Source: an uncultured Woeseiaceae bacterium
Lineage (GTDB): Bacteria; Pseudomonadota; Gammaproteobacteria; Steroidobacterales; Woeseiaceae
Reading direction: 5' to 3'
Assembly: GCA_947259145.1 (NCBI GenBank)
Contig: CAMYLB010000059.1
Span: forward strand, 1-32,243
DNA length: 32,243 nucleotides
Positions 2,752 to 29,700 of the stretch are shown piece after piece (the stretch's first letter is position 1; every line of letters begins with the position of its first letter). The notes under the pieces were generated by a model. It was not told the origin of the DNA, made no database searches, and saw nothing but the letters and a program-made list of their open reading frames with translations. Made by a program: the position numbers and the translations under genes.

Positions 2752-3567
2752 ATGAATACGACCGCCCGAATCCTGATCACAGTCTTGCTCATCACCGTCG
2801 CCACGCTGACGACACGAGCGACGCTAGCCAATACGCCAACTATCCGGCTCTTCCCCACGACGGTTGTCGAAGATCTGCGGCAAACCGGCAATGTCGCGCG
2901 CGACATGGAAACCGGCCTGCAAGAAGTGATTGGCCGACTCGATCAGCAGCAGGAGCTGTACCACGAGAGCAAATGTGACGGCGCAGAAGATGACTCCGGG
3001 TGTCAGCGCCTCGCACGTCAGATTGGCGCGAGCTATCTCGAGATGCTCACCATTATGGATGAGCGGCTGCCGGACATGGAGCACACGGTGAATAACACGC
3101 GGCTGAGTCTCGAGAAAAGTCTGCGCAATGAGCTCGGCCGGAAAATGACACCCTGGACATTGCAGGAAACGCTGATAGGCAGTGATGCGAACAAAACGGT
3201 AAGTAAGTCCTCCCCCACGCTGCGCGGTCGCTCGGGCATGCGTCTCAGCGAACGATTCAATCAATATTATCAACTGGTCGCTACGTCCGGCGCCAAAGGT
3301 GACCAGTCGCTTGCGGTACTGGCGTCGGACATCTACCTCGATATGGAAGAGACCAGTCTGCTGATTCAGCGCACGCGTCAGGAGATCGCCCGTGCAACGC
3401 TGATGGAACAGCTAAACCAGTCGTTCGGCATCATCACACCCGAAATGATTGAAGTCGTTGGCGGCGTCAAATCCATCCTGTTCGGCGACGAGGAAGGTCA
3501 GGCGCTCGTTGCCGGCCCACCACCAGGCAGCGTCGAGCAAGCCTACCGCAGTCCGCTTGAACAATGA
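2752..3567 (+). CDS. Secreted helical hypothetical protein; first gene of the envelope operon
   Basis: 271-aa ORF with N-terminal signal peptide (MNTTARILITVLLITVATLTTRATLA) and charged helical body. Confidence 0.75.
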   Translation: MNTTARILITVLLITVATLTTRATLANTPTIRLFPTTVVEDLRQTGNVARDMETGLQEVIGRLDQQQELYHESKCDGAEDDSGCQRLARQIGASYLEMLTIMDERLPDMEHTVNNTRLSLEKSLRNELGRKMTPWTLQETLIGSDANKTVSKSSPTLRGRSGMRLSERFNQYYQLVATSGAKGDQSLAVLASDIYLDMEETSLLIQRTRQEIARATLMEQLNQSFGIITPEMIEVVGGVKSILFGDEEGQALVAGPPPGSVEQAYRSPLEQ

Positions 3568-3592
3568 AAAAAGTACAGTGAGGAGAATTTCT

Positions 3593-4144
3593 GTGAACTC
3601 AAACGCCATTAGAAAACCGCTGCTTGTTGTCGCGGGACTCATCGCGACAGCTTTCTTCATAGCGTCATGTGCATCGACAGCCCCAAGCTGCGCAGCACCA
3701 CAATCGAAGAATCTCAGTTCAGCTATTAGCACCACGCAATCATCGTTGCTGGAAGGCTGCCACGCGCACTTTGACCGCTATTATGACGATCTGATGACCA
3801 TCGCGGAAGGTGATCCTAAACCGGAAAACAAGCGGGAGTTCAGCCAGTTCCTGGTTTGGTCCGCTGACAAGGGACTGCTCAGTAACCGACAGGCGGAGGA
3901 TTACTACAACCGCTTCTTTAACGTGAAGTTCATGTCACTTAAGGGCGACTACAACAACTGCTCACACACCTGTCCCAATAAGCAAAAGGTGCTGTTCGAC
4001 ATGGAGCGCGAACTGTCAGAAAAGGAACGTGGTTTGCTCAAGGTCAGTCTCGATAACGACGGTTATTACCGTGCCGACCAGTTGTACCAGGAAGTCGAGC
4101 TCGTACTCGAGGCGACCTGCACCGCCTGCTCGGCAAGCCGATAG
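3593..4144 (+). CDS. Putative lipoprotein of unknown function
   Basis: Within ORF 3449..4144; GTG at 3593 preceded by aggag; signal VNSNAIRKPLLVVAGLIATAFFIASC gives a lipobox-like Cys. Confidence 0.7.
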   Translation: MNSNAIRKPLLVVAGLIATAFFIASCASTAPSCAAPQSKNLSSAISTTQSSLLEGCHAHFDRYYDDLMTIAEGDPKPENKREFSQFLVWSADKGLLSNRQAEDYYNRFFNVKFMSLKGDYNNCSHTCPNKQKVLFDMERELSEKERGLLKVSLDNDGYYRADQLYQEVELVLEATCTACSASR

Positions 4145-4160
4145 ATTGAAGTAAACGACG

Positions 4161-4811
4161 ATGAGCCGCAGCCTCGTCTTTTTCAAAGGGCTCGCCGCCG
4201 GCGCGCTCGGAACCCTGATCGGCGGTTCGGCGACGCTGTACCTGTTGGGCCGCAGCGGCGTGATTCATTTTAATGACACGGCGATCAGCAGCCCCGGCGA
4301 ATGGCTGCACTGGGCTTACACGAATCTCGGCTCCTCTATTCCGGTCTTCGCGGTACTGCTGCTGGCCTACTTCGTCACTCTTGGGCGCCTGCGCGACGCG
4401 CTGGAGAACGCGCGCCCGATCAACCAGATCGTGCAGCTCGATCACCTGACCGATATCTGGACCACGTTGTTTTTTGGCACGGGTGTTATCTGGACTGCAA
4501 TCGGCATGCGCAGCGCGCTGATATTTGCACTCGGCGATCGCGCTGCGGCGCTGCAGCAAGGCGCGTTCGCAATGCTCGAACGCATGATTGACGGCGGCAT
4601 CCTGTTGGCACTCTCCACCACTATTTTTGGCGGTGTGGGCGGATACGTGATGCGCGTATACAAGACTGTATTGCTCGGCACGCAGCTGCAACAACAGTAC
4701 GACACAGCTGCGCGCGCCGATACCTCTGAAATGCGCGAGAGCCTGAAGAGAATCGAGACACACCTTCGCAAGGGCAGCGATGCGTCTGCCGTCGTCGAGG
4801 CGCAATTATGA
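4161..4811 (+). CDS. MotA/TolQ/ExbB-like proton-channel membrane protein (divergent)
   Basis: Three hydrophobic segments; FFGTGVIWTAIGMRSALIFAL and GGILLALSTTIFGGVGGYVMRVYKTVLLG resemble TolQ TM2/TM3; overlaps the next gene by ATGA. Confidence 0.6.
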   Translation: MSRSLVFFKGLAAGALGTLIGGSATLYLLGRSGVIHFNDTAISSPGEWLHWAYTNLGSSIPVFAVLLLAYFVTLGRLRDALENARPINQIVQLDHLTDIWTTLFFGTGVIWTAIGMRSALIFALGDRAAALQQGAFAMLERMIDGGILLALSTTIFGGVGGYVMRVYKTVLLGTQLQQQYDTAARADTSEMRESLKRIETHLRKGSDASAVVEAQL

Positions 4812-5602
4812 TGCGCTCACCGTTAGCCTACCCTCTCAATCGTTCCGCCGACATGGATGGCGGCGGCGCCGCAGACCTGCAAACCGACATCATGCGATTC
4901 ATGGCGATCCTGTCGCTGTGTCTTGTTGCGATATTCGCGCTCGTGCAGAGCATACCGATGACACCGGCGCCGCCCGTCGAGCCCGAGCCACAGGACACAC
5001 CCGTGGAACCGACCCCAATAATCGCGAAAATCCCGCCGGCCGCCCCGCCAAAACCGGCGGTCCCGAAAACGGTCGCAAAACCGGTCGAAAAAGCCGTCAC
5101 GCTGACACGTCCCAAGTGGGTTCCGAAATTCCAACCGGCGAAGGCTGTTGCTGTACCGATCGAAGCCGCGCCTCAGGTTCAGGCGGCTGCGGCTACCGTG
5201 ACGGAGGCAACGTCACCAGCGATACCGCCGGTTGAGAGCGAGGCGAAAGGATTCACGCTGCGCTTCGAATCCGATGCCGCACTGACGCGGCTTGTCGCGG
5301 CAAGCCATGTCGGTCTGTACGCCATTGAAAGCGACCGCGCGCAGCGCATGACCGTCAGCAACAGCCGTATCAGTTTCTGGGACGCATCCATGCCGAACAC
5401 ATTTCACGAAATGGAAACCGCCACGGTACCTGCCGCGGTGATTGAAGCGCTGACCCGGACCGGAATAACAGCCGACGCCGTCAGCTGGGGCGTCACCTTG
5501 CCGGGCAAATTGAAAATTCAACTCGATGATCTCATGCAGGCCCACAGCGGCGGCGTACTGGTCATCGGGGCAAGCGGTGACATCCAATTGGAGGCCTCAT
5601 GA
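4808..5602 (+). CDS. ExbD/TolR-like single-pass protein with Pro-rich linker and periplasmic domain (divergent)
   Basis: N-terminal TM DLQTDIMRFMAILSLCLVAIFALVQSIP with Asp at its start as in ExbD/TolR; Pro-rich linker; ATGA overlaps on both sides. Confidence 0.55.
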   Translation: MMRSPLAYPLNRSADMDGGGAADLQTDIMRFMAILSLCLVAIFALVQSIPMTPAPPVEPEPQDTPVEPTPIIAKIPPAAPPKPAVPKTVAKPVEKAVTLTRPKWVPKFQPAKAVAVPIEAAPQVQAAAATVTEATSPAIPPVESEAKGFTLRFESDAALTRLVAASHVGLYAIESDRAQRMTVSNSRISFWDASMPNTFHEMETATVPAAVIEALTRTGITADAVSWGVTLPGKLKIQLDDLMQAHSGGVLVIGASGDIQLEAS

Positions 5603-7122
5603 TCCGACGTATCCTGATTCTGCTAACGGTGCTTGTCGCGCAGGCGATTCCAGCTGTTGCCCAGTCGCGAGAAAAGGACCTCGATCGCTGGCTGGACCGC
5701 GACCTTATACCTTACGTGCGACAACAGCTGATCGTGCATCCGCGCTTCAAGAACGAGACCGTGATGTTCGTGGTGCTGCGCGATAACGCGCCGGCTTCTG
5801 CGAGCAACGCGCTGGCACTGTCGCTGCGCGATCGTGTCCTGGCCGCAGCCGTGGCGACGCCCGGCGTTGCCATTGGTTGGCAGCAGGGACGTAGCGGCAA
5901 TTCGCTCGATTCGCAGCCGCAGAATTGCACGCTTGACGACGTGCACTACTACATCGGAATCGAGCTTACGCAAAAACTCGACAGCAGCTATTCGGTAAAC
6001 GTACGTGCGCTGGACCTCGAGGATCGTAACTGGGTGACCGGTTTCGGCAAGCACTGGAAGGGACAGCTCAGCACGACTCAACGCCAGGCAATGCGACAGT
6101 CGCGCATCGATGAGACTTTTCTCGGCGCTCGCGACGTGCCGTTCACGCTGGCGCAGACGGACCTGCTCGCAGCGCATCTGGCTCACCAGTTGACCTGCAC
6201 GATGCAAAAGCGCGTATCGGACGAATACGTGGTCGCTACGGATCTCCAGGAACCAACGGCAAGTGGCCTGCAGGGAACAGTCGAACTGATCAGCAACAAT
6301 CTCGCAAACCGCCAGGCGCTCGTATTGAGCAGTGACGAGACGAGAACGAATGCGGTGTTGGGCGGCAAGGCGCATCAGATCGATGGCGTGTTGTTTCAAT
6401 ACTGGCTGACCGTGACGCCGCAAAATGAAGATGACGACGTCACGGCACTGAGCGCCAGCGCTTACATCGTATTGCCTGACGCGCAGTTCGCGAATGTGCC
6501 GAATCCGAAGCCGGATCCGGCCATGAAACAGACGGCCGCCGTGACGCCGACTTCGATCTCAATACCGAATGCCGGAAAAGACTCATTGATCAATTCACTG
6601 CAATTGTCGTCGCCGGCCTCATTGAGCGATTGCCAGGGCGGCGGCATAGCTATTCGCGAAACAACGTATATGACGGGTGTGCGGCCGTGCTCGATACTGC
6701 AGACTCGCGCAAACGCGGACTCGATAGTCTTCTTCCTGGAACACCAGGCGAATCATGGGCTCGTGCGGCTGGCCGGGCCCGAATGCCGTGATCGGACCAA
6801 GGCGAATATTGTACGCAGCGGCGAGCTGCTGAGTTTTCCCATCGCCAAGACAACTACCGCAAGACAAAACTGGAGCGAGACCTACGAATGGTTGCTGCAA
6901 CCGGATCTCGACACCTACTACGCCGTGGTCGTATCGGATGCTCAGCTTGCAAGGCGCGTCGCCAACCACATGGACAATCTTCCACTGCGATGCTCCACGT
7001 CGATTCGCCCGGGCCTCGAGGGCGACGATCTTCGAGAATGGCTGAGTGATTTTGCAATGATTACGGCACGCTCATCGAAACACGTCGACTGGCGCGCTCT
7101 GAAAGTTACGGACGTACTTTAG
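5599..7122 (+). CDS. Secreted 507-aa protein of unknown function
   Basis: Signal peptide MIRRILILLTVLVAQAIPAVAQ; start overlaps the upstream stop (ATGA). Confidence 0.7.
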   Translation: MIRRILILLTVLVAQAIPAVAQSREKDLDRWLDRDLIPYVRQQLIVHPRFKNETVMFVVLRDNAPASASNALALSLRDRVLAAAVATPGVAIGWQQGRSGNSLDSQPQNCTLDDVHYYIGIELTQKLDSSYSVNVRALDLEDRNWVTGFGKHWKGQLSTTQRQAMRQSRIDETFLGARDVPFTLAQTDLLAAHLAHQLTCTMQKRVSDEYVVATDLQEPTASGLQGTVELISNNLANRQALVLSSDETRTNAVLGGKAHQIDGVLFQYWLTVTPQNEDDDVTALSASAYIVLPDAQFANVPNPKPDPAMKQTAAVTPTSISIPNAGKDSLINSLQLSSPASLSDCQGGGIAIRETTYMTGVRPCSILQTRANADSIVFFLEHQANHGLVRLAGPECRDRTKANIVRSGELLSFPIAKTTTARQNWSETYEWLLQPDLDTYYAVVVSDAQLARRVANHMDNLPLRCSTSIRPGLEGDDLREWLSDFAMITARSSKHVDWRALKVTDVL

Positions 7123-7132
7123 TGAGGCCGCG

Positions 7133-7672
7133 ATGATCAGAATTATTGGAATCTTGACGGGCTCTGCACTTGCGGTTGCATTTCTGATCGTTGCATTGGG
7201 CATACCTGAACTCGAGGCACCACAGCCAGAACCGGCAGCGCCGACGCCAGCCGTGAGGCAGGCCGACGCCGCGCCGAACCCGCAACCCGCGCCGCAACCG
7301 CAGCCCGCGCCGAACCCGCAACCCTCGCCGCAACCGCAACCGCAAGCGATTTCTCAGCCGGAACCGGAACCTGCCGTTGCCCGGATTCCACCCTCGCCCC
7401 CCGTTCCGCGGCCGGAGACCGCGGCCGTGCTCGAAGACGTTGCCGTGCCTGTTGAGGAACAGTGGTATGCCTTCTGGAGCCCTTTCCGGAGCAAGGTGGC
7501 CGCAGACGGCTTCGTGTCGCAGCTGCAAAAAACGACGGGGCTGGACTATCGCGTCGTCAAACTCGAGCCTGGCGTTTACGAGGTCGCGTTTGCCTATTCT
7601 GATGACTCGGACATCCAGGAAAAACTGGTACGGATCTCCTCAGCAACGGGTCTCGATCTGCCGGGTGGCTAG
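7133..7672 (+). CDS. Membrane-anchored Pro-rich protein with C-terminal SPOR-like domain
   Basis: N-terminal TM, P-rich linker with tandem repeats, C-terminus WYAFWSPFRSKVAADGFVSQLQKTTGLDYRVVKLEPGVYEVAFAYSDDSDIQEKLVRIS with SPOR-type beta-alpha-beta pattern. Confidence 0.6.
   Translation: MIRIIGILTGSALAVAFLIVALGIPELEAPQPEPAAPTPAVRQADAAPNPQPAPQPQPAPNPQPSPQPQPQAISQPEPEPAVARIPPSPPVPRPETAAVLEDVAVPVEEQWYAFWSPFRSKVAADGFVSQLQKTTGLDYRVVKLEPGVYEVAFAYSDDSDIQEKLVRISSATGLDLPGG
7273..7344 (+). repeat. Two copies of a 36-bp Pro-rich coding repeat (PNPQPAPQPQPA)
   Basis: gccgaacccgcaaccc(g/t)cgccgcaaccgca(g/a)cc... starts at 7273 and again at 7309. Confidence 0.8.
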
Positions 7673-7673
7673 C

Positions 7674-8465
7674 ATGCGGGAAATTCGTCTACAGGTCCTT
7701 ATTGCTCTTGGTGGAATCATCCTCATGGTTCTGTCAGGTTCGGCTGGCGCCGCGAAACCTGACTTTGACGCTGCGTGGCAGAATTATTCGGCAAACCAGG
7801 CGTCACTCGAGCCCGCCTATACTTTTCCCCATGCCACATGTTTCAGCGTCGCCGCCCTCGAATACGACCTGCCCGAGTCACTGTTGCTCGCCGTCGCGCG
7901 CGGAGAAAGCGACTTCAAAGCGACCGCGCGATCCCGTGCCAATGCCCATGGTGTGATGCAAATTCTCTGGCCAGGCACTGCAAAGCACCTGGGGATTCAT
8001 CGTTTGAGCGATTTGTACGATCCCTGCACGAATATTGACGCGGGCGCGCGCTACCTCAAAGAACTTCTGCAGCGCTATGACGGCAACGTGCATCTTGCGC
8101 TCGCGGCATACAACTATGGCCCGGGTCGTATCGCGGAAGACGGATACGGCATTCCATCCGGCGCCGTCTGGTACTCGGGCTACATTTACCGCCATCTGAA
8201 CTACGTCCTGGGCAGCAGTTCGGTCGCAAAGCCCGTGCCGGATACCCTGTACTCGGCTATCGGGCAATCAACGCTGCTGACGTTCGGCGAACCCTACCGC
8301 GCCGAAGCGTTTATCGCCCGCCTCGAAAAACGCTCGTCAGAACTGAATCTCGACTGGTTTCGTCGCGGTACGGGCGAATTTGAGGTAGTAATGACTTACG
8401 CGAATCGCGAAGAATACGATCGCAGTGCCCGCCAACTTGCGCGCGCCGGATTCAGGATCGACTAG
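7674..8465 (+). CDS. Lytic transglycosylase (SLT domain) with C-terminal SPOR-like extension
   Basis: Signal peptide; SLT motifs ESLLLAVARGESDF, ANAHGVMQILWPGTA, LAAYNYGPGRI; ATG at 7674 in frame with ORF 7377..8465. Confidence 0.85.
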   Translation: MREIRLQVLIALGGIILMVLSGSAGAAKPDFDAAWQNYSANQASLEPAYTFPHATCFSVAALEYDLPESLLLAVARGESDFKATARSRANAHGVMQILWPGTAKHLGIHRLSDLYDPCTNIDAGARYLKELLQRYDGNVHLALAAYNYGPGRIAEDGYGIPSGAVWYSGYIYRHLNYVLGSSSVAKPVPDTLYSAIGQSTLLTFGEPYRAEAFIARLEKRSSELNLDWFRRGTGEFEVVMTYANREEYDRSARQLARAGFRID

Positions 8466-9149: not shown

Positions 9150-9716
9150 ATGCTCGTTGCGAATCCTTTATGTGAGGCCGATGTGAGTCAGGAAGTCCTC
9201 AAAGTTCTCATCAGCGAAGCGGACATCCAGGCCCGCGTCGCGGAACTGGCCCAGCAGATCTCGAAAGACTATGACAATTGCGGCGAGCTCGTCCTTGTCG
9301 GCGTATTGAAAGGGTCTTTCATTTTCCTGGCTGATTTGTCGCGCCAGCTGTCAATCCCGCGTGTCATCGAGTTCATCGCGGTATCCAGCTACGGCAAGGG
9401 CAGCCGTTCGAGCGGCGCCGTGCGCCTCGTCATGGACGTGCGCGGCAATATTGAAGGCAAGCATGTGCTGATCGTCGAAGACATCGTCGATACGGGCCAC
9501 ACGCTCGAATACCTGATCGGCATGCTCAAGTCCCACGGTCCGGCGTCGGTAAAAACCTGCGCGCTGGTGCGTAAAGCGGATTGTGCAGAAGTCCATGTGG
9601 ACGTCGACTACCTGGGGTTCGATATCCCCGACGAATGGGTGGTCGGCTATGGCCTCGACTACGCGGAAAAGAACCGCACCCTGCCCTACATCGGTATCAT
9701 CGCACCCACTGACTAG
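9150..9716 (+). CDS. hpt: Hypoxanthine (guanine) phosphoribosyltransferase
   Basis: PRPP motif VLIVEDIVDTGHTLEYL; LVGVLKGSFIFLADLSR; DEWVVGYGLDYAEKNRTLPYIG. Alternative GTG start at 9183. Confidence 0.92.
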   Translation: MLVANPLCEADVSQEVLKVLISEADIQARVAELAQQISKDYDNCGELVLVGVLKGSFIFLADLSRQLSIPRVIEFIAVSSYGKGSRSSGAVRLVMDVRGNIEGKHVLIVEDIVDTGHTLEYLIGMLKSHGPASVKTCALVRKADCAEVHVDVDYLGFDIPDEWVVGYGLDYAEKNRTLPYIGIIAPTD

Positions 9717-9729
9717 TGATCGGCACAGC

Positions 9730-10480
9730 CTAATGATCGGCACAGCCATCGACCTCGACCTCGATCGTCGAGTGCCCGATACCGTATTCCTCCTGCAGGA
9801 ACGTTTTTACATCGCGAATAACGCCGGACTGACTCTCGACCGGCCCGTCCAGCGACACGTGCATGGTCAGCATCAGCTGCTGAGGCGTTAGCCCCCAGAT
9901 ATGGACGTGATGAATTTCGCGCGACCGACAATATCGGGTCGATCGGCGTCCAGCCCGTGTTAATAATGATGATTGCCGCCACGATCGCTGCAATCGAACC
10001 CAACAGGTCGCCCGCCACGTGCAGGGCAGCACCTCGAATATTCAGGTTTTCCTTGTCGCCCGTATGTAAGACGGCAAAAGAAACCAGATTGATGACGAGA
10101 CCGGCTGTTGCCACCACGAGCATCGTCTCACCCAATACATCTCTCGGGTTAAAGAACCGGCTGACCGCCTCAAACAAAATCCAGCCGACGACCGCCAGCA
10201 GGCTCAATCCATTAACAAACGCGGCGAGTATCTGGAAACGCTGGTACCCGTAGGTCAGGTGACCGCCCGGCGGGCGCTTGCTGACCTGAAACGCCATGGC
10301 CGCGAGTGACAGTGCCATTGTGTCGGTCAACATGTGGCCGGCGTCCGCGAGCAACGCCAGCGATCCCGAAATAATGCCGCCTACGACTTCGACCAGCATG
10401 AACGTGCCGGTCAGGACAAGTGCAATCATCACGCGCCGCTGATTGCTCTCGTTCGCCTCCTGCCCATGCGCCTGCGCCAT
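9730..10480 (-). pseudogene. CDF-family cation efflux transporter (ZitB/CzcD-like), broken by internal deletion and frameshift
   Basis: N-terminal part in ORF 9713..10480 up to GWTPIDPILSV; C-terminal part REIHHVHIWGLTPQQLMLTMHVSLD in another frame (ORF 9730..10032); the segment between appears missing. Confidence 0.8.
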
Positions 10481-11863: not shown

Positions 11864-12726
11864 GTGATTTCAGCCACAGAACATCCAAAGAAGTATATTG
11901 ACGTCAATGGCAGGCGCATGGCCTATGTCGAGATGGGCGAGGGCGACCCGATTATTTTTCAACACGGTAACCCGACCTCGTCCTACCTGTGGCGCAATAT
12001 CATGCCGGAATTGGCGAACCATGGACGCTGCATCGCCGTCGATCTGATCGGTATGGGCGATTCCGACAAACTCGATAATCCGGGTCCTGACAGCTACCAA
12101 TACGTAGAACATCGCGACTACCTGTTTGCGGCCTGGCAACAACTGGGTGTCACTGACAACGTCACTTTTGTAATCCACGATTGGGGCTCGGCACTGGGCT
12201 TCGACTGGGCCTGCCAGCACCCGGACAAAGTACGCGGTATCTCGTACATGGAAGGCATCGTGAGACCCGTCAGTTGGGAGGAGTGGCCCGAGGCGATACG
12301 CCCGTTGTTCCAGGGATTTCGTTCCGAAGCCGGTGAGACGATGGTGCTCGAAAAAAACGTGTTCGTGGAACGCGTGTTGCCCGGCTCCGTGCTTCGCGGC
12401 CTGACCGAGGATGAAATGGCCGTCTACCGGCGGCCGTTCGAAAACGAGGGCGAGACCCGACGGCCGACATTGACATGGCCGCGCCAGATTCCGCTGGAGT
12501 CCATGAGATCGTCGCGCGGTACGCGGACTGGTTATGCCATTCTGGGGTACCGAAACTGTTCATCAACGCCGAACCGGGAGCGATTCTCACAGGGGCACAG
12601 CGCGAGTTCTGCCGGGGCTTTCCAAACCAGATCGAGGTAACGGTTGCCGGCAGTCACTTTATCCAGGAGGACTCTCCGCGGGAAATCGCGGCTGCGATTC
12701 GCGAATGGCTGGACGCCCTGCCCTAG
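11864..12726 (+). pseudogene. Haloalkane dehalogenase (LinB/DhaA-like) split by a frameshift near 12500
   Basis: [21 protein letters not shown] in frame 1; [15 protein letters not shown]...GSHFIQEDSPREIAAAIREWL in frame 2 (ORF 12475..12726). Confidence 0.82.
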
Positions 12727-12750
12727 TGCGGCCACGCGAAATCCGGACAA

Positions 12751-12782
12751 AAAAAAGCGGCTTCTCGCGAAACCGCTTTTTT
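12751..12782. terminator. Bidirectional Rho-independent terminator
   Basis: aaaaaagcgg-cttctcgcgaaa-ccgctttttt; 10-bp perfect arms (12751-12760 / 12773-12782), A-tract and T-tract on both sides. Confidence 0.85.
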
Positions 12783-13031
12783 CAAACCTACGTTAACACG
12801 TAGTTCCTGGCCCCCTGAATCCCCCGCCAAGTCGTACCTGAAGGTGTCTTGCAATCGCCACGCAGCCAAGGTGTTGTGGAAAGGCTACGTTTGATGGGAT
12901 TTAAATTCGCAGAAAACTCGCTTGTTGTCAATCCTTTAGGTGACATCCGGCTATAACACCTGAGCCCCCGCTTTTTTTGTGGCATAAACACAACGATCTG
13001 TTCAGGTTACGATTGCCTGAAAAATCAACGC

Positions 13032-13892
13032 TTAAGCGGTCACTTCAGAGGATTCGTCCAGAACCGGGCTACGCAGACGGCCCACACCCGGGACTTCGAC
13101 TTCGACCGTGTCGCCGGGTTGCAGCCAGACCGGGGGCGTCCGAGCTGCCCCGACTCCGCCCGGTGTGCCGGTCGCAATGATGTCGCCCGGCAATAATTCC
13201 GAGAATGTGGAGCAGTATTCGATCAGCGTCGGAATATCGAAAACCAGGTCGGCTACCCGCCCACGCTGCATCACCTCACCATTTACGAAGGTGGTGAGCT
13301 GCAGCACCGACGGGTCGGGAATTTCGTCGGTGGTAACGATGCAAGGGCCCATCGCACCGCTGTGATGAAAGTTCTTGCCCGGCGTGAATTGCGGCGTGTG
13401 CCTTTGCCAATCCCGAATCGAGCCGTCCATAAAGCAGCAGTAACCCGCGACGTAGTCGAGTGCATTGTCTCGATGGACATGGCGCGTGCGCTTGCCAATG
13501 ACAATGGCCAGCTCGCCCTCGAAATCGAATTGCTCGGAAGCGGACGGCCGGAGTATCGGTTCATTGTGTCCGGCCAGACTGGCTGGAAACCGAACGAACA
13601 CGACCGGGTAGTCGGGGACCTGCCGGCCCATCTCCTCGATATGCGGCCGATAGTTCACGCCGACACACAGGATCTTGTCCGGGTTCGGGATTGTGGGGAC
13701 AAAGCGAAGCTCGGAGGCACTGTAAACCGCGACTCCGGCATCGTCCGCCAATTCCTGCTCCGCTCCGGCGGCAATCACGGCCCGAAGATCGCGAAATCGC
13801 TCGCGAAATGCCAAACTGGCCTCGCGGACGCGATCGCCGTCCGCTAGCCCATAGCTCAGTTGGCCATCGTGTTCGAAGCTGACTAACTGCAC
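13032..13892 (-). CDS. Fumarylacetoacetate hydrolase (FAH) family protein
   Basis: KILCVGVNYRPH, FDFEGELAIVIGK, GDIIATGTPGGVG motifs; GTG start directly after the upstream M16 TAA. Confidence 0.9.
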   Translation of the reverse strand: MQLVSFEHDGQLSYGLADGDRVREASLAFRERFRDLRAVIAAGAEQELADDAGVAVYSASELRFVPTIPNPDKILCVGVNYRPHIEEMGRQVPDYPVVFVRFPASLAGHNEPILRPSASEQFDFEGELAIVIGKRTRHVHRDNALDYVAGYCCFMDGSIRDWQRHTPQFTPGKNFHHSGAMGPCIVTTDEIPDPSVLQLTTFVNGEVMQRGRVADLVFDIPTLIEYCSTFSELLPGDIIATGTPGGVGAARTPPVWLQPGDTVEVEVPGVGRLRSPVLDESSEVTA

Positions 13893-20760: not shown

Positions 20761-20969
20761 ACGGCTTTGGGCAGCTGCTCGAAGGTAGCCCCGATTTCCT
20801 GACGCAATGCATCCATGACGTCATCGAACTCGCCAACGACCTGCGTGCTCATCGCATTCGTCCATACCTCGAGTCGCTCGTGGCCATTCAGACGGGCAAT
20901 CACGTCCTTGATGGGTGGAATGAAATCCGCGTCCAGCGGGTACAGACTGATATCAACCGCTACTTTCAT
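20739..20969 (-). CDS. YkoF-like thiamine-binding small protein (C-terminus fused or lost)
   Basis: MKVAVDISLYPLDADFIPPIKDVIARLNGHERLEVWTNAMSTQVVGEFDDVMDALRQEIGATFEQLPKAVFAIKILN; the rest of ORF 20472..20969 is out of frame over the PnuC-like gene. Confidence 0.6.
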
Positions 20970-23086
20970 TAGTCGAACCTCTTTTCAATAGTGACGCCTG
21001 CCTGGCGAGGGTCGCCCAGGCGTGTGTACAACGTATTCGGAAAATCCGGCGGCTCATTGCCAAAGTAAAATCCGCGTACTGCATAATTTTCGTCGAGCAG
21101 GTTGCGTGCCCACAACTGCAGCGACCAGCTATCACGCTCGTAACCGATACGTGCGTTCAGCAGTTCATAAGCCTGCGATTTTTGGTCGTGACTGACGTCG
21201 AAGTAGAAGGCATCACGCGCCGTTACATCCAGGCGCGCAAAGAAACCGCGAGCGTTTCGGTACACCGCGCCGGCCGCGAGCGTATAGCGCGGCGCATGGG
21301 CCTGGTCCCGTCCACCGAGGTCGCCCTGCGGCGCGATGAATTCGTCGAAATCCGCGCGCAGCAACCCCAGGTTTGCGTACAGCTCCCAGTACTCGGATAC
21401 AAACCATCGCAGCTCTGCCTCTGCACCGAGGGTACGGCCTTTTGCCGCGTTGTCGGTAAAAAACACGAATGACGCCGGGTCACCCGGTATGAGCTGAAAC
21501 GAGGTGCGCACCTGTTGATCGTCACGGCGACTGTAGAACAACGAAGCATTTAACTTCAGCGCATCATCGGCCAGCGACGATTTGATGCCCGTCTCGACGC
21601 TCCAAAGTTGCTCTTCACCGTAGTCCCTGCGTCCCGGAGGCACGGCACCCAGGTTAAAGCCGCCAGCTTTATAGCCTTTGGTCAGGCTCACGAAACTGCT
21701 CAGTGCGGCGGAGTGATCGTGGCTTACGCTGAGTTCCCCGCCCCACATGGTTTCCGATGGCCCCGCCCGGAGCGCGGTTGTATCGACATAGTCGGTCGAT
21801 CGATGCTCGATTCGCAGCCCAACGCCTAGTCGGGTCGCGGCACCGATAGCGCTTTCCAGCTGGCCGAACAGCGCCGTACTCATCGCCTCGTAATCACTGC
21901 CGAACGAATCGTCGAGACTGTCCGCGAAGTCATAGAAAGGATCGTAATAGTCGCCCTGGTTCAGCGTCAGCAGCTCGTCGTTAAGATCTTGCACGTAGAG
22001 CCCGACGAGCCAGTCGGTGGTTGCATTGAAAATCTGCCCGGCGTCATTCGAGGCCAGGCGAAACTCCTGGCTAAGGGTCCGGCGACCGCGATCATTGATT
22101 GAGACGTAGTCGTAGGTCACGGGCGCCCAGCTATCGTCATTGCCCCAATCCGCATCAAAACCAAAGTCGATATCGGAATCAGCGATCGCGGTGATGGACG
22201 TCAATGTCATGGATTCCATGGCTGACCAGTCGAGCCGCAATGAAGCTCCCGTACTTCGCTGGGCATCCCTGCCCGGCTTGTCGGATAACATCGTATAGCT
22301 GTTGTCGAGCGCGAACGCATCGTAGCCGTTGTCGATGTCGCTATGCAGGACTGAGAGGTTCGCTTCGAGCGTCGGTGACGGTCGATATCGCAGCCGGATA
22401 CGCAGCGCCGATTCATCGCGGCCGTTGGTATCGTCGCGACCGAGATGACTGTTGCTGCGAAATCCGTTGCTTTTGTATTTTTGCGCGCTGACGCGAAAAG
22501 TCATCGTCTCACTTTCATCGAGCGCTCCGCCGAATGCCAGACCCAGCGAGATGGCATCATCATCGCCGGCGCTCAGCTGCACGCGCCCATCCCGTTCCGG
22601 CGACGGATCGGCGCTGCGCACGTAGATCAGTCCACCGAGCGCATTCGCTCCGTAGCGACTGCCCTGCGAACCGCGTAATACCTCAATCGACTCAACGTCA
22701 AATAGCGTCGCGACTGTACCGATACCGCTGAAGTCGATGTCATCGATTAGAAAGCCGATGGACGGATTCGGTGCACCCTGGTATTGCTCCAATTCACCGA
22801 CCCCACGAATCTGAAAGTAACGGGCACGATGCCCATCGCCTGACCAGTTGAGATTGGGAATCACATTGATCAGTTCTTCAAAGTGCTGAACTGCGCTTTG
22901 CTCGATGAATTCGGCGTCCAGTACGCTGACGCTGGCCGGAAGCTCATTGACAGTACGTTCCCGGAAGTCCGCTGTCACAATGATCTCATCAACCGGATCT
23001 GTATCGGTCTCAGCCGCCGCAGAGGGTAGCGCGAGTATCAATAATAGTGCTGCGCCGAATAAGCGCCTGTTGGACCGTGGATGCAT
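20969..23086 (-). CDS. TonB-dependent outer membrane receptor, probably thiamine-related
   Basis: Signal peptide, TonB-box/plug (DEIIVTADFRERTVNELPASVSVLDAEFI, VESIEVLRGSQGSRYGANALGGLIYV), C-terminal beta-strand ending VTIEKRFD; TPP-riboswitch-like leader. Confidence 0.9.
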   Translation of the reverse strand: MHPRSNRRLFGAALLLILALPSAAAETDTDPVDEIIVTADFRERTVNELPASVSVLDAEFIEQSAVQHFEELINVIPNLNWSGDGHRARYFQIRGVGELEQYQGAPNPSIGFLIDDIDFSGIGTVATLFDVESIEVLRGSQGSRYGANALGGLIYVRSADPSPERDGRVQLSAGDDDAISLGLAFGGALDESETMTFRVSAQKYKSNGFRSNSHLGRDDTNGRDESALRIRLRYRPSPTLEANLSVLHSDIDNGYDAFALDNSYTMLSDKPGRDAQRSTGASLRLDWSAMESMTLTSITAIADSDIDFGFDADWGNDDSWAPVTYDYVSINDRGRRTLSQEFRLASNDAGQIFNATTDWLVGLYVQDLNDELLTLNQGDYYDPFYDFADSLDDSFGSDYEAMSTALFGQLESAIGAATRLGVGLRIEHRSTDYVDTTALRAGPSETMWGGELSVSHDHSAALSSFVSLTKGYKAGGFNLGAVPPGRRDYGEEQLWSVETGIKSSLADDALKLNASLFYSRRDDQQVRTSFQLIPGDPASFVFFTDNAAKGRTLGAEAELRWFVSEYWELYANLGLLRADFDEFIAPQGDLGGRDQAHAPRYTLAAGAVYRNARGFFARLDVTARDAFYFDVSHDQKSQAYELLNARIGYERDSWSLQLWARNLLDENYAVRGFYFGNEPPDFPNTLYTRLGDPRQAGVTIEKRFD

Positions 23087-23087
23087 G

Positions 23088-23152
23088 ATTCCCTTCCTAC
23101 GCCGGTACTAGCCGGATCAGGTTCTAAGGGTTCCCTGTGCGCCCGGCACCCT
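23088..23152 (-). promoter_or_regulatory. TPP (THI) riboswitch-like leader, 3' half conserved, 5' half atypical
   Basis: Minus strand ...GGGTGCCGGGCGCACAGGGAACCCTTAGAACCTGATCCGGCTAGTACCGGCGTAGGAAGGGAATC-ATG; matches ACCTGATC-GG-TA-TACC-GCGTAGG; the CTGAGA motif is not seen. Confidence 0.75.
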
Positions 23153-23989
23153 GGATGTGTCCCAGCGGCTGCCGCCCATCGCCTGCACCTCGGCATAGAA
23201 TTGATCGACGAGCTCGGTGACCTCGAGCCTGGCGCCGTTGCTTCTGGACTCATCGAGCGCGATCCGAAGGTCCTTGCGCATCCAGTCGACGGCAAAACCA
23301 AAGTCAAACTCGCCGTCGACCATCGTCTGCCAGCGGTTTTCCATTTGCCAGGACTGCGCCGCCCCTTTGGAAATTGACTCAATGACGACCGCGGGATCGA
23401 GGCCGGCGCGTGCCGCAAAGTCGAGCCCCTCGGACAGCCCCTGAACGATGCCGGCGATACAGATCTGGTTGACCATCTTGGCGAGTTGACCGGAGCCGGT
23501 CGGGCCGATGTGCGTGATCCCTTTTGCGTAGCTGTCGATCACGGGCGCGGCTCGCTCGAATACATCGGGGTCGCCGCCAATCATCACCGCAAGCTGACCG
23601 TTCTCGGCGCCCGCCTGGCCACCTGATACCGGTGCATCCAGAAAGCCCACGGCCTTCTCTGCGGCTCGCACATGGATTTCACGCGCTATAGTCGCTGACG
23701 CTGTCGTGTGGTCGACGATTAGTGCGCCCGGTGAAATGCCATTGAGAACCCCCGTCTTGCCGAGGATGACTTCGCGCACATCGTTGTCGTTACCCACGCA
23801 ACAAAACACGATATCGGCATCCTCTGCGGCTGCCGCCGGCGTTGCCGCGCTGCTGCCGCCGAACTGCCGGGTCCAGCTTTCTGCTTTGGATGCGGTACGG
23901 TTATAGACGACCACGTCGTGGCCCGCTTTCGAGAGAAAGCCGGCCATCGGATAGCCCATAACGCCAAGCCCAATAAAAGCAGTGCGCAT
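23117..23989 (-). CDS. 3-hydroxyisobutyrate dehydrogenase family protein
   Basis: IGLGVMGYPMAGFLSKAGHDVVVYNR, FLDAPVSGGQAGAENGQLAVMIGG, GSGQLAKMVNQ; C-terminal codons overlap the riboswitch-like leader. Confidence 0.9.
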   Translation of the reverse strand: MRTAFIGLGVMGYPMAGFLSKAGHDVVVYNRTASKAESWTRQFGGSSAATPAAAAEDADIVFCCVGNDNDVREVILGKTGVLNGISPGALIVDHTTASATIAREIHVRAAEKAVGFLDAPVSGGQAGAENGQLAVMIGGDPDVFERAAPVIDSYAKGITHIGPTGSGQLAKMVNQICIAGIVQGLSEGLDFAARAGLDPAVVIESISKGAAQSWQMENRWQTMVDGEFDFGFAVDWMRKDLRIALDESRSNGARLEVTELVDQFYAEVQAMGGSRWDTSRVPGAQGTLRT

Positions 23990-24000
23990 CTCTTTATCTC

Positions 24001-25182
24001 TCAGGCCGCATTGGCTTTCGCGGCTTTTTCTCGTTTGCGCGGGTCCAGCCCGATCGAACGCGCGATGATCTCACGCATGATTTCCGAGCTACCGGCGTAG
24101 ATGCGGGATACGCGTGCATTGGTATACAGGCGCGAGACTTTGTATTCGTCCATGTAACCATTGCCGCCATGCAACTGAACGCATTCGTCGGTAATCCGAC
24201 CTTCGAGTTCACTGGTCCAGAGCTTCGCTTTCGCCGCGTCATCCGCGGTCAGGCGACCCAGGTTGTGATCTTCAACGCAACGATCAACAAAGGCATATCC
24301 GACATCCAGTTCGGTACGCATGTCCGCCATCTTGAAGCGCGTATTCTGAAAGTCGGCAATAGCCCTGCCAAAGGCCTTTCGTTCGTTAACGTATTCCAGC
24401 GTCAGGTTGTACGCCGCCTCAGCGCTCGCAATATAGCCGCAGGCACCTAGCAGGCGTTCTTCGGCCAGCCCGTGCATCAGGTGGTAGAAACCGCGATGTA
24501 GCTCACCGAGCAGGTTCTCCTTCGGAACCTTGACGTTGTTGAAAAACAGCTCGGCCGTATCCTGGCTCTTGAGGCCCATTTTCTTCAGGTTCTTACCACG
24601 TTCGAAACCCGCCATGCCACGTTCGACGACAAACAGTGACAAGGCATGACTGTTATTGGGGTCGGTACGTGCCACGACGATAACAAGATCCGCGAGGATG
24701 CCGTTTGAAATGAATGCCTTGGATCCGTTGAGCAGGTAGTGATCGCCTTTGTCTTCCGCTTTGGTGCGCAGGCCGGCGACGTCGCTGCCGGCGCCAGGCT
24801 CGGTAATCGCAACGGCAAGTATGTGCTCACCCGAAATGCATTTCGGCAGCCAGCGCGCCTTCTGTTCCTCGGTTGCGAAGCTGTCGAAATAAGGAGCAAC
24901 CAGGCGGCTGTGCAGGGTCATGAAGAATCCGGCATCGCCATGATGAGCGTTTTCTTCGATAAGAATTTGCTCGTATCGAAAATCGCGTACGCCGATGCCG
25001 CCGTATTTTTCGTCAGCCCACATCAGCAGGAAACCCATCTCGCCGGCCTTGAGGAACGCCTCGCGATCCACGATGCCTTCTTCGTGCCAGCGCTCGCTGT
25101 GCGGCTCGATTTCTTTTTTCATGAAGCTGCGCACGGAGTCGCGAAACATCTCGTGTTCTTCTTCGAAAATATTTCTGTCCAT
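24001..25182 (-). CDS. Acyl-CoA dehydrogenase
   Basis: AVAITEPGAGSDVAGLRT, ERLLGACGYIASAEAA, QLHGGNGYMDEYKVSRLYTNARVSRIYAGSSEIMREIIARS. Confidence 0.95.
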   Translation of the reverse strand: MDRNIFEEEHEMFRDSVRSFMKKEIEPHSERWHEEGIVDREAFLKAGEMGFLLMWADEKYGGIGVRDFRYEQILIEENAHHGDAGFFMTLHSRLVAPYFDSFATEEQKARWLPKCISGEHILAVAITEPGAGSDVAGLRTKAEDKGDHYLLNGSKAFISNGILADLVIVVARTDPNNSHALSLFVVERGMAGFERGKNLKKMGLKSQDTAELFFNNVKVPKENLLGELHRGFYHLMHGLAEERLLGACGYIASAEAAYNLTLEYVNERKAFGRAIADFQNTRFKMADMRTELDVGYAFVDRCVEDHNLGRLTADDAAKAKLWTSELEGRITDECVQLHGGNGYMDEYKVSRLYTNARVSRIYAGSSEIMREIIARSIGLDPRKREKAAKANAA

Positions 25183-25211
25183 TGTCGTTACCCTGTCAAT
25201 TTTTCAGGCGT

Positions 25212-25985
25212 TTACTTGCCTTTGAAATTCGGCTCACGTTTTTCGAAGAACGCCGCAACGCCTTCGATATTGTCGTCACTGCCTGCCAATGCCTGCTGCC
25301 AGTCAGCTTCCAGGCTGAAGGTGCTCGCCCAATCATTGTCGATAGCGTGACGCATGGTTTTCTTGGTCGCCTCGAGCGACCGCGGCGCGCGTTTCGCAAG
25401 CGCCTGCGCCCATTCCAGCGCCACACTCTGCAAGTCCTCTGCGGGCACGGCCTTGTTCGCAAGGCCGAGTTCAACGCATCGATTCGCAGTAATGCGCTCC
25501 GATTCGACGCTGAGCTGGAAGGCACGGCGATAGCCGAGCTGCCGCACGAGCAGCCAGCTGAGTCCGCCATCCGGTACGAGCGAAATCGTCGTGAACGGTG
25601 ACAGCAGGAACGCGTTGTCGGCCATGACCAACAAATCGCAGTGCAGTGCCAGTGACATGCCGATGCCGGCCGCCGAGCCCGGAACAGCCGCTATGACAGG
25701 CTTCGACATCGTCGCGACTGCCGAGAACACGGGTCGATACTCGTAGTGCAACTTGCCGAATACGCTGCGCCCTTCGATTCCGGCCTTGAGATCTGCCCCG
25801 GCACTGAAACATCGCCCTTCGCCGGTCAGTACGACCACGCGGACATCGTCATCGGCGGCCGCACGTTCAAGCGCCAGCTGTGTTTGCAGGGACAATTCCG
25901 CCGTGAATGCGTTCATCGCATCGGGGCGATTCAATGTAATCACGGCAACGGCGCCCTGTTGTTTGTAGCTGACAATGTCAGTCAT
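25212..25985 (-). CDS. Enoyl-CoA hydratase/isomerase family protein
   Basis: VITLNRPDAMNAF, GEGRCFSAGADLK, VPGSAAGIGMSLALHCDLLV. Confidence 0.93.
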   Translation of the reverse strand: MTDIVSYKQQGAVAVITLNRPDAMNAFTAELSLQTQLALERAAADDDVRVVVLTGEGRCFSAGADLKAGIEGRSVFGKLHYEYRPVFSAVATMSKPVIAAVPGSAAGIGMSLALHCDLLVMADNAFLLSPFTTISLVPDGGLSWLLVRQLGYRRAFQLSVESERITANRCVELGLANKAVPAEDLQSVALEWAQALAKRAPRSLEATKKTMRHAIDNDWASTFSLEADWQQALAGSDDNIEGVAAFFEKREPNFKGK

Positions 25986-26282
25986 TAGGGGACCTCCGAT
26001 TGACTATTTCATGACTGCGCTGCGCGCCCAGTTGTGCCGAGACGCGACGCGGCTCGATGGTAATGGCCTTAGCCCTTGCCGAGAGGCGCAACAAAGTATC
26101 GGCACAACTGGGCCACAACCCGTTGACACAGATTGTTCTTCTTCCGGGCCGGGGTGGATCGTCCGAATAGCGACGTTGCGATGCCTCGACAGACCTATGG
26201 GTATGTTGTCGCCATCGCGCCTTTCTCTCCGGACGATCCACCACCGGCGCAGCCACGAAATAATCATTCGAAGGTCCCATAA
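25985..26282 (-). repeat. Large nested inverted-repeat element: outer 38-bp imperfect arms enclosing two long hairpins; candidate structured RNA or palindromic mobile element
   Basis: Outer arms 25985-26022 / 26245-26282 (31/38 identical as inverted repeat); inner perfect arms 26026-26040 / 26099-26113 (15 bp) and 26153-26165 / 26230-26242 (13 bp); further hairpin gcgatg/catcgc and cgaca/tgtcg inside the second. Confidence 0.9.
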
Positions 26283-26288
26283 GTCTCC

Positions 26289-28463
26289 TCAGGCGGCTGA
26301 ACGGGCTTCGCCCTTTTCGGCAAGCCCGTAGTAGGTTTCGCCGCTTTCAGCCATTGCGCGCAATCCGTCGGGAACTTCGAATCGCGCGCCGTAGGTTTTT
26401 GCAAGCCGGTCGGCGTCGGCAACAAACGCTTTTAAGCCAATCGTCTCAATGAATGACAAGGTGCCGCCCATATAGGGCGGGAAACCCCAGCCAAAAACAG
26501 ATCCTACGTCGGCATCAGCCGGATGCGTCAGCACGCCTTCCTCAAGACAACGCGCTGCATCTATGGCTTGCACATACAACAGGCGGGTTTTGACCTCTTC
26601 CGGTGAAGGTTGTTCACTGGATAGCGGGAAATGCTTGGTCAGCCCAGGCCACAGTCGCTTGCTGCCATCGTCGGAATATTCGTAGAAGCCGGCGCCAAAC
26701 CGCTTGCCGCGCCGCTCGAGATCGACCACCATTTTTTCCATCACGTCATCGGCGGGCGTCGCGACATAGTCGTCACCCAGGTCGGCCTTGGTTTGTTTTC
26801 CGATCTTGTAGGCCAGCTCCAGCGACACCTCATCCGTGACAGCCAGCGGACCGACCGGCATGCCGGCATGCTTCGCAACATTCTCGATCAGTGCCGGTTT
26901 AACGCCTTCGGCGAGCATCGCAATGCCTTCCCGCGTAAAGGTGCTGAACACGCGGCTCGTGTAGAAACCGCGGCTGTCATTGACAACAATCGGCGTCTTG
27001 CGAATCTGCTGGATGTAGTCCAGCGTGCGCGCGATCGCCTTGTCACTGGTCTTTTCGCCCACGATGACTTCCACGAGCGGCATTTTATCAACGGGCGAGA
27101 AGAAATGGATGCCGATAAAGCTCTCAGGACGCTTGGACGCCTCGGCAAGACCCGTAATCGGCAATGTCGACGTATTTGAACCGAAAATTGCGTCGCTACC
27201 AATCACGGCCTCGGTTTTCGCCGTCACATCCGCTTTTATACTGCGATCTTCGAAGACCGCTTCGATCACATATTCGCAGCCATCGAGATCCGCATAATCG
27301 TCGGTCGTATGTATCTGCTCGAGGATAGCCGCAGCAGCGTCGGCATCCATGCGGCGACGGTCGATCCGTTTTTGCAGCAATTTGCGCGAGTAGTCTTTGC
27401 CTTTCTCGGCGTCGTCTTTGCTGCGATCGAGCAATACCACCTGCATGCCGGCACGCGCCGAGACAAATGCGACCCCGGCGCCCATCATGCCGGCACCGAG
27501 TACGCCAAGTTTCGTGACCTTGCTCTTGTCGATACCCTGCGGACGACGCACGAGTTTATCCGCCGCCCCTTTGTTGACGAACAGGGTGCGAATCATGTTA
27601 CGAGCTTCGGCGCTAGTGAGGAGTTCTGCGAAGTACTTCGATTCTATCTGCAATGCCTGATCGATCGGCAGAACCGACCCTTCGTAAACCGCTGACATGA
27701 TTGCGATCGGCGCTGGATAATTATGATTGGTCGCTTTTTGCAGCAACGCGACGCCGAACATCTGCGTTTGAATGGCCTTGGGATTCATGAGGCCGGCGCC
27801 GCCGGGTACCTTGAATCCTTTCTTGTCCCAGGGTTGAACGGCTTCGCCCCCGTCGAGAATCCACTGCTTCGCGGCATCGACCTCCTGACCCGGTTCCACC
27901 AGTAGATCGACGACACCCAGCTCGGTCGCTTTCGCGGGTGACAAGTGCGTGCCTTGCAGCAACAAAGGCAGCGCCGCCTCGAGTCCAATCAAGCGCGGCA
28001 GGCGTTGCGTGCCTCCGGCGCCGGGCAGCAGCCCGACCTGCACCTCCGGCTGGCCCAGTTTTGCCTTCGGATTATCGGCGGCAACGCGGTAATGACACGC
28101 GAGGCACAGTTCGAGGCCACCGCCGAGCGCGGTGCCATTGATCGCGGCAACGACGGGCTTCCCACAGGTTTCTAGCTTGCGATAAAGCTGCTGCAGGCCG
28201 CTCCATTTGGCGAAGGCCACTTTCGGATCTGCTCCCGGATCGATTTCATCCACAATCTGCAGCAGGTCCGCGCCGGCAATGAAGGAGCTCTTGCCGGATG
28301 TAACGACGGCGCCCTTGATGTTCTCGTCGCCTGCAACCTGGTCGATTGCCTTGTCGAGCTCGGCGATGAACTCCGGTGATACGACGTTCATGGATCGGTC
28401 CTTGAGATCGATCGTAATCAGTGCGATGCCATTGCTGTCTGTTTTGATATCAAGTGTTTTCAT
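26289..28463 (-). CDS. FadB/FadJ-like fatty acid oxidation complex alpha subunit (enoyl-CoA hydratase / 3-hydroxyacyl-CoA dehydrogenase)
   Basis: GKSSFIAGADL, GTALGGGLELCLACHYRVA hydratase motifs; LGVLGAGMMGAGVAFVSARAG NAD-binding; IGIHFFSPVDKMPLVEVI. Confidence 0.95.
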   Translation of the reverse strand: MKTLDIKTDSNGIALITIDLKDRSMNVVSPEFIAELDKAIDQVAGDENIKGAVVTSGKSSFIAGADLLQIVDEIDPGADPKVAFAKWSGLQQLYRKLETCGKPVVAAINGTALGGGLELCLACHYRVAADNPKAKLGQPEVQVGLLPGAGGTQRLPRLIGLEAALPLLLQGTHLSPAKATELGVVDLLVEPGQEVDAAKQWILDGGEAVQPWDKKGFKVPGGAGLMNPKAIQTQMFGVALLQKATNHNYPAPIAIMSAVYEGSVLPIDQALQIESKYFAELLTSAEARNMIRTLFVNKGAADKLVRRPQGIDKSKVTKLGVLGAGMMGAGVAFVSARAGMQVVLLDRSKDDAEKGKDYSRKLLQKRIDRRRMDADAAAAILEQIHTTDDYADLDGCEYVIEAVFEDRSIKADVTAKTEAVIGSDAIFGSNTSTLPITGLAEASKRPESFIGIHFFSPVDKMPLVEVIVGEKTSDKAIARTLDYIQQIRKTPIVVNDSRGFYTSRVFSTFTREGIAMLAEGVKPALIENVAKHAGMPVGPLAVTDEVSLELAYKIGKQTKADLGDDYVATPADDVMEKMVVDLERRGKRFGAGFYEYSDDGSKRLWPGLTKHFPLSSEQPSPEEVKTRLLYVQAIDAARCLEEGVLTHPADADVGSVFGWGFPPYMGGTLSFIETIGLKAFVADADRLAKTYGARFEVPDGLRAMAESGETYYGLAEKGEARSAA

Positions 28464-28491
28464 TTATCTGTTTCCGTCAATTTTATCTGGC

Positions 28492-29700
28492 TCAAACGCG
28501 TTCGATTATGGTCGCTGTACCCATGCCGCCGCCAACGCACAGGTTGATCAATGCTGTTCCCTGGTCGCGGCGTTCCAGCTCGTCGAGTACCGTGCCCAAT
28601 ATCATTGCACCCGTTGCGCCGAGTGGGTGGCCCATTGCAATGGCGCCACCGTTGACGTTGATGCTGTCATGCTCGATGCCGAGCTGCCGCATGAACAACA
28701 TCACCACCGATGCAAACGCCTCGTTCAACTCGAACAGGTCAATATCCTTGACGGCCATTCCGCAGCGCTTCAATACTTTTTCGGCCGATGGCGCTGGGCC
28801 GGTCAGCATTATGGTCGGATCAGTGCCGATCGAGGAAAAACCCTTGATACGCGCGCGCGGCTTCAGCCCCAGCGCTTTGCCCATTTCCTTCGTGCCAACC
28901 AGGACCGCGGCTGCTCCGTCAACGATGCCGCTCGAGTTACCGCCCGTGTGGACATGGTTGATCGCCTCTACCTGTGGATACTTCTGCAGGGCGACTGCGT
29001 CGAATCCTGCCTGGTGACCCGGGATCTCAAACGCGGCTTTTAGGCCTGCCAGATCGTCTGCCGTCGTACCCGGCCGCATGTGTTCGTCGCGATCCAACAG
29101 GACGGTGCCGAGCTGATCGGTAATCGGCACAACGGAATTCGAAAAATAACCCTTCTCCCATGCGTGCGCAGCCCGTGCCTGGCTTTCCACGGCGTAAGCA
29201 TCGACATCTTCACGCGTGAAGCCTTCGAGGCTCGCGATCAGGTCCGCACCAATGCCCTGCGGTACGAAGTACGACTTGTAGGCAAATCCCGGGTCGGCAT
29301 GCATCGCGCCGGAGTCCGATCCCATCGGCACACGCGACATGCATTCGATGCCGCCACCGATGGCAAGATCGGATTGGCCAGACATCACCTGTGCCGCCGC
29401 CGTGTTCACAGCCTCGAGACCGGATGCACAAAACCGGTTCAGCTGTTTTCCCGGAACGCTTTGATCGTAATCCGCGTTGAGCAGCGCCAGGCGAGGAATG
29501 ACTGATCCCTGTTCGCCGACCGGGGCCGTGCATCCGAATACAACGTCGTCGAGTTTGCTGGTGTCGAGCTCGTTACGATCGCGCACCGCGGTCAATACCT
29601 GGGTGACCAGATCGATAGGCGTTACCGGGTGCAGGGACCCGTTCGAGCGGCCTTTGCCGCGCGGACTGCGAACGTGATCGAAAATATAGGCGTCTGTCAT
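28492..29700 (-). CDS. Acetyl-CoA C-acyltransferase (thiolase)
   Basis: [53 protein letters not shown]. Confidence 0.95.

Follow-up and report, generated by a model that had tools for sequence, protein, structure and literature searches.

Do seven tightly packed envelope genes in an uncultured member of the Woeseiaceae encode an ion-driven machine and, if so, does it belong to one of the systems already described? The genes, designated A to G, lie in tandem on the + strand at positions 2752-8465 of the window, by which we mean the whole 32,243-nucleotide stretch of DNA that was analysed; the source assembly is 3.08 Mb in size and 76% complete. An earlier note on this DNA had read the seven genes as an envelope operon that pairs an ExbB/ExbD-like proton channel with a lytic transglycosylase and SPOR-like domains. 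To our knowledge, 5:2 ion-driven motors have only a handful of known physiological roles, namely flagella, Ton, Tol-Pal, gliding/T9SS, and Zorya.

Gene content and packing of the cassette

Gene A (2752..3567) encodes a secreted periplasmic protein of 271 residues, probably mainly helical. It is followed by gene B (3578..4144, with a GTG start at 3578 or 3593), which encodes a lipoprotein with the lipobox ...FIASC, probably located in the outer membrane. The product of gene C (4161..4811) is an inner-membrane protein with several predicted transmembrane (TM) helices and a putative pentameric channel subunit, while that of gene D (4808..5602) is a putative axle with a single TM helix, a proline-rich linker, and a C-terminal domain. 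Gene E (5599..7122) encodes a secreted protein of 507 residues, gene F (7133..7672) a protein with one N-terminal TM helix, a proline-rich linker, and a C-terminal domain, and gene G (7674..8465) a secreted lytic transglycosylase that ends in a domain homologous to that of F. The true start of gene G is 7674, and a mechanical ORF start at 7377 was set aside. Signal peptides (A, E, G), a lipobox (B), or TM helices (C, D, F) are thus seen in every product, as the earlier note had stated.

The gene pairs C/D and D/E overlap by an ATGA (-4), and the remaining intergenic gaps span 1-16 nt, so the tight spacing that had been noted before is borne out. It is largely retained in relatives, where most copies keep the C-D overlap of -4. 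Across relatives, dN/dS falls between 0.04 and 0.28 for all seven; they are therefore real genes under purifying selection. A scan of the cassette for promoters and terminators gave no signal above that of shuffled sequences, and searches of the cassette proteins against Pfam and NCBIfam yielded a confident family match for G alone.

Two other regions of the window deserve mention. A cation-efflux (CDF) gene at 9713-10480 (- strand) looks frameshifted: its Pfam homology covers residues 18-187 of the ORF, and the C-terminal part appears to run on in another frame (ORF 9730-10032). The region 20969-29700 (- strand), with genes for a TonB-dependent receptor and then an acyl-CoA dehydrogenase, a multifunctional 3-hydroxyacyl-CoA dehydrogenase/hydratase, and a thiolase, is an ordinary fatty-acid oxidation region.

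A heritable unit, kept or lost whole

Loci were gathered through relatives of protein C, and more distant gammaproteobacterial families through a profile of protein A. At about 30 loci, in Woeseiaceae and in other families, A-G is complete and in the same order, truncations at contig edges excepted. The co-conservation on which the earlier reading depended is therefore seen across Woeseiaceae and further gammaproteobacterial families. The cassette is known from seven families: its own (f1), three more from its order (f4, f8, and f16), and three from other orders (f77, f149, and f168). In family f4 and in one f168 genome, the contig ends after A-D. Clustering of flanking ORFs at 16 loci found A-G to be the sole block common to all; a larger operon was rejected because these flanks share no genes outside A-G, and the adjacent feoAB, dNK, and hpt genes belong to the local surroundings and not to the cassette.

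In Woeseiaceae the usual site of the cassette lies between feoA and a deoxynucleoside-kinase (dNK) gene. Seven relatives without the cassette have an empty site, in which feoA and dNK stand about 90-170 bp apart (dNK-feoA-feoB adjacent) and none of A-G is present. In two Woeseiaceae genomes of 1.5 Mb, all that is left at the cassette site beside feoA is a decayed stretch of gene A of some 50 codons (L167:5826-5978, which has an internal stop, and L168:2737-2886); these remnants are scars of cassette loss. When 99 relatives were screened, A was found in 37 genomes, C in 34, and E in 35. These genome sets are nearly identical, and the mismatches are accounted for by contig ends and the two relics of gene A. 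A-G is one heritable unit, kept or lost whole.

Distances for all seven proteins follow those of FeoB (Mantel r 0.74-0.88). From this tracking, the empty sites, and the relics, the cassette appears to have been inherited vertically in Woeseiaceae and lost whole repeatedly. A mobile cassette or horizontal transfer within the family was rejected on the same evidence, since the empty sites and relics fit loss; gene A had no match in plasmids or phages. Outside this family the cassette is rare: it occurs in 5 other genomes of the 369 sampled in the class, and in the phylum a further 398 sampled genomes all lack it.

Two genomes each carry two divergent copies (L076 and L077 in G025; L090 and L091 in G439). 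In family f8, the genes that flank the cassette encode a FimV-domain protein and a MotB (plug and OmpA) (L070:2353-4752, 12369-13409; L071). Genome G001 has an empty feoA-dNK site and yet, elsewhere, a homologue of E at a contig edge (C14, L169:61-1335), and its cassette may have moved. A C homologue at G034:C40:34897-35514 (L012) has an in-frame TGA, either an assembly error or a mark of a decaying copy.

Gene C encodes a putative channel subunit

None of 24 C homologues reaches Pfam model PF01618 (MotA_ExbB), and NCBIfam likewise gives no match. A whole-genome search with PF01618 finds seven proteins elsewhere, C not among them. However, all 24 homologues carry, over the two central TM helices (TM3/TM4), the signature GxxxTxxG ... 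GIxxALxxTxxG of the MotA/TolQ/ExbB superfamily. The invariant residues are G108, T112, G115, G146, I147, A150, L151, T154, and G157, and so include both signature threonines (T112 and T154), which correspond to channel-lining positions of the superfamily. Scanned against 4580 ORFs (six-frame, at least 100 codons), the signature matches 88 relatives of C, 64 PF01618-type proteins, and nothing else, a result that is strong but not blind, because the pattern was drawn with the alignment in view and both families are over-represented at these loci.

Profile and fold comparisons lean more weakly the same way. HHalign of C with the superfamily aligned exactly the TM3/TM4 signature stretch (E 0.0097), with 4 of 250 shuffles scoring equally well or better. 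A single-chain AlphaFold model of C (pLDDT 81) was compared with 350,542 PDB chains by Foldseek. TolQ ranks first, and 28 of the top 50 matches are TolQ, ExbB, PomA, or MotA, at E of at least 0.19 and a TM-score of about 0.27. C is very probably a remote, divergent member of the MotA/TolQ/ExbB superfamily. Pfam and NCBIfam both miss the earlier ExbB/ExbD calls, which draw their support from the signature, the fold, and the profile comparisons.

Gene D encodes a putative axle

Protein D has a single N-terminal TM helix with a conserved aspartate near its cytoplasmic end, as in ExbD, TolR, and MotB. The helix (residues 22-47) opens with LQTDxMRF. The earlier note had pointed to a conserved TM aspartate as a feature to look for, and Asp27, nearly invariant, sits where the aspartate of MotB and ExbD does. 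A linker of 42-179 residues follows, mostly proline-rich and, in the distant copies L091-L093, coiled-coil-like; this switch resembles, by analogy, the variation of domain II in TolA and TonB, where a comparable swap between helical and proline-rich types is described (PMC12204202). The C-terminal domain (residues 148-262) is predicted with high confidence and has no fold match in the PDB; gyrase B in its Foldseek list is meaningless (TM-score about 0.15).

Neither Pfam PF02472 nor MotB_plug matches D, and alignment of its TM region with ExbD is not significant. By HHalign, the last 32 columns of the C-terminal region score higher against the ExbD periplasmic region than any of 251 controls, shuffled or reversed. 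Because the globular domain has no ExbD match in the PDB, the label ExbD-like, given to 4808-5602 earlier, rests on the TM aspartate and this 32-column similarity.

The C-D gene pair resembles exbB-exbD in arrangement and in the short profile match at the C-terminus of D, but differs from it in the 42-179-residue linker and larger domain of D, the absence of TonB, and the missed PF02472. MotA-MotB and PomA-PomB are likewise two-gene motors whose axle protein bears a periplasmic domain, and D resembles them in having an Asp-x-Met where its TM helix begins. Unlike them, D shows neither an OmpA-like domain nor a plug motif, flagellar partners are absent, and PF01618 is missed.

Genes F and G have a tail domain in common

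The lytic transglycosylase claimed earlier is confirmed. The SLT domain of G is found at E=1.3e-27 (96 bits against a cut-off of 21.3), its catalytic residue Glu78 is invariant in 21 of 21 sequences, and by sequence G is an SLT-family lytic transglycosylase. It has this domain and the catalytic glutamate in common with Slt70 and MltC, but is short, secreted, and operon-bound, with a tail that is also found in F.

HHalign shows that the F and G tails are homologous (94%, E 1.2e-7), with a score that none of 201 controls reached. Their former description as SPOR-like fares less well. PF05036 (SPOR) is reached only below threshold, by 4 of the 20 F members and 4 of the 21 G members, and HHalign against true SPOR domains is weak and off-register for the F tail and not significant for the G tail. 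A canonical SPOR assignment was therefore not established; the firm result is that F and G have one homologous C-terminal domain, which is only weakly SPOR-like.

Genes A, B, and E encode envelope proteins of no known family

A is the most conserved member of the cassette (52-97% identity) and has two invariant cysteines, at positions 75 and 84. B has seven, of which the lipid-anchored one is the first. E also has conserved cysteines, and four of its distant copies are lipoproteins. Such cysteines would suit an oxidising periplasm. No family match in Pfam or NCBIfam, and no PDB relative by sequence, was found for A, B, or E, in keeping with the earlier statement that these three match no nameable family. 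Low-scoring Pfam, NCBIfam, and PDB matches were judged to be chance, with the exception of weak hints for E, each in one member, to ABC_trans_aux (0.0032) and DUF4384 (0.0052).

A proposed peptidoglycan-directed motor and its alternatives

The anatomy of the seven proteins fits best with a further ion-driven machine of the envelope, belonging to the 5:2 motor class, MotAB/TolQR-like and acting on peptidoglycan; we judge the chances that this reading is right to be about even. With somewhat less confidence, we suggest that this machine is distinct and undescribed, a new C5D2 motor subfamily with its own force-bearing axle, in which five dedicated proteins, three of them familyless, deploy the cassette's own transglycosylase. 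We infer for it a 5:2 assembly, ion flow, force transfer, and a peptidoglycan target. C would form a pentamer in the inner membrane, with D as a dimeric axle whose TM aspartate would be loaded with protons (or Na+) where D meets C. Like MotB, D would have its own reach, through its proline-rich or coiled-coil linker and periplasmic globular domain, and a separate TonB or TolA would, we propose, therefore be unneeded. D might then move or load the periplasmic or outer-membrane partners A, B (the lipoprotein), and E, and so govern where and when G opens glycan strands. The domain common to F and G may keep G at the site of membrane-tethered F.

An apparatus for motility, adhesion, or secretion, AglRQS/Glt- or GldLM-like, in which G merely gaps the peptidoglycan for an envelope-spanning assembly, is an unlikely reading. 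Envelope-spanning machines are accompanied by dedicated transglycosylases, a patchy, dispensable distribution suits an accessory trait, and the f8 cassette adjoins FimV-domain and MotB genes. The gliding machineries would also resemble the cassette in putting a 5:2-type motor to non-flagellar use with many envelope partners. However, the cassette has no recognisable Glt or Gld component and no recognised surface filament, adhesin, ATPase, secretin, or outer-membrane beta-barrel, nor is a gene for any of these last five common to its flanks.

It is doubtful that C and D serve instead as a non-motor scaffold, by which a complex of the lytic transglycosylase is anchored in the inner membrane, for example at the divisome. 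In favour of this reading, both proteins fall short of their Pfam families and give weak whole-chain fold matches. Against it stand the two TM3/TM4 threonines invariant in C, the nearly invariant TM aspartate of D, and a C signature exclusive to the superfamily.

We consider it improbable that the cassette arose as a diverged copy of Tol-Pal (or Ton) and performs the standard Tol-Pal function. In favour of this are the seven-gene layout, the TolQ chains that lead the fold list of C, and the lipoprotein and secreted partners; C also has the TM3/TM4 signature in common with the Tol system, and D a linker that reaches into the periplasm and varies between proline-rich and helical. Yet no cassette gene shows a recognisable TolA, TolB, Pal, or CpoB domain, and each of the ten genomes tested, whether it has the cassette or not, encodes a single TolB at another place. 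The cassette also has a transglycosylase and the F/G domain, and we know of no SLT/shared-tail pair in Tol-Pal. Because the partner genes are missing from the cassette and TolB lies elsewhere in the same genomes, the cassette is not Tol-Pal or Ton, and a Tol-Pal paralogue was rejected. The earlier note had already held, from the absence of those partner genes, that it is not Tol-Pal, and had seen no adjacent TonB gene.

Anti-phage defence of the Zorya type, with a MotA/MotB-like stator, would fit the stator-like pair and the accessory distribution but is highly improbable and was rejected along with other defence systems, since PADLOC, including its ZorA/ZorB models, matched no cassette protein at E<=0.01, the cassette has no nuclease or helicase gene, and it appears to be vertically inherited and repeatedly lost.

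Implications

By membership the cassette belongs to none of the Tol-Pal, Ton, flagellar, gliding, or Zorya systems; if the reading as an ion-driven machine acting on peptidoglycan is right, it works in a MotAB/TolQR-like manner. A survey of MotAB relatives notes a large number of generic ion transporters whose function is unknown (PMC12505986), and a further motor role is therefore compatible with current knowledge. We found no description of the seven-gene cassette in the open-access literature; so far undescribed, it is carried by Woeseiaceae of marine sediments and by a small number of further families of Gammaproteobacteria. If this conserved operon, present in full or not at all, does join a motor to a peptidoglycan-cutting enzyme of its own, that would be a further role for 5:2 motors, and would render directly testable whether proton-motive force can serve to deploy a lytic transglycosylase. 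Woeseiaceae are abundant and little-studied bacteria of marine sediments, and the cassette offers a concrete target for study in this family.
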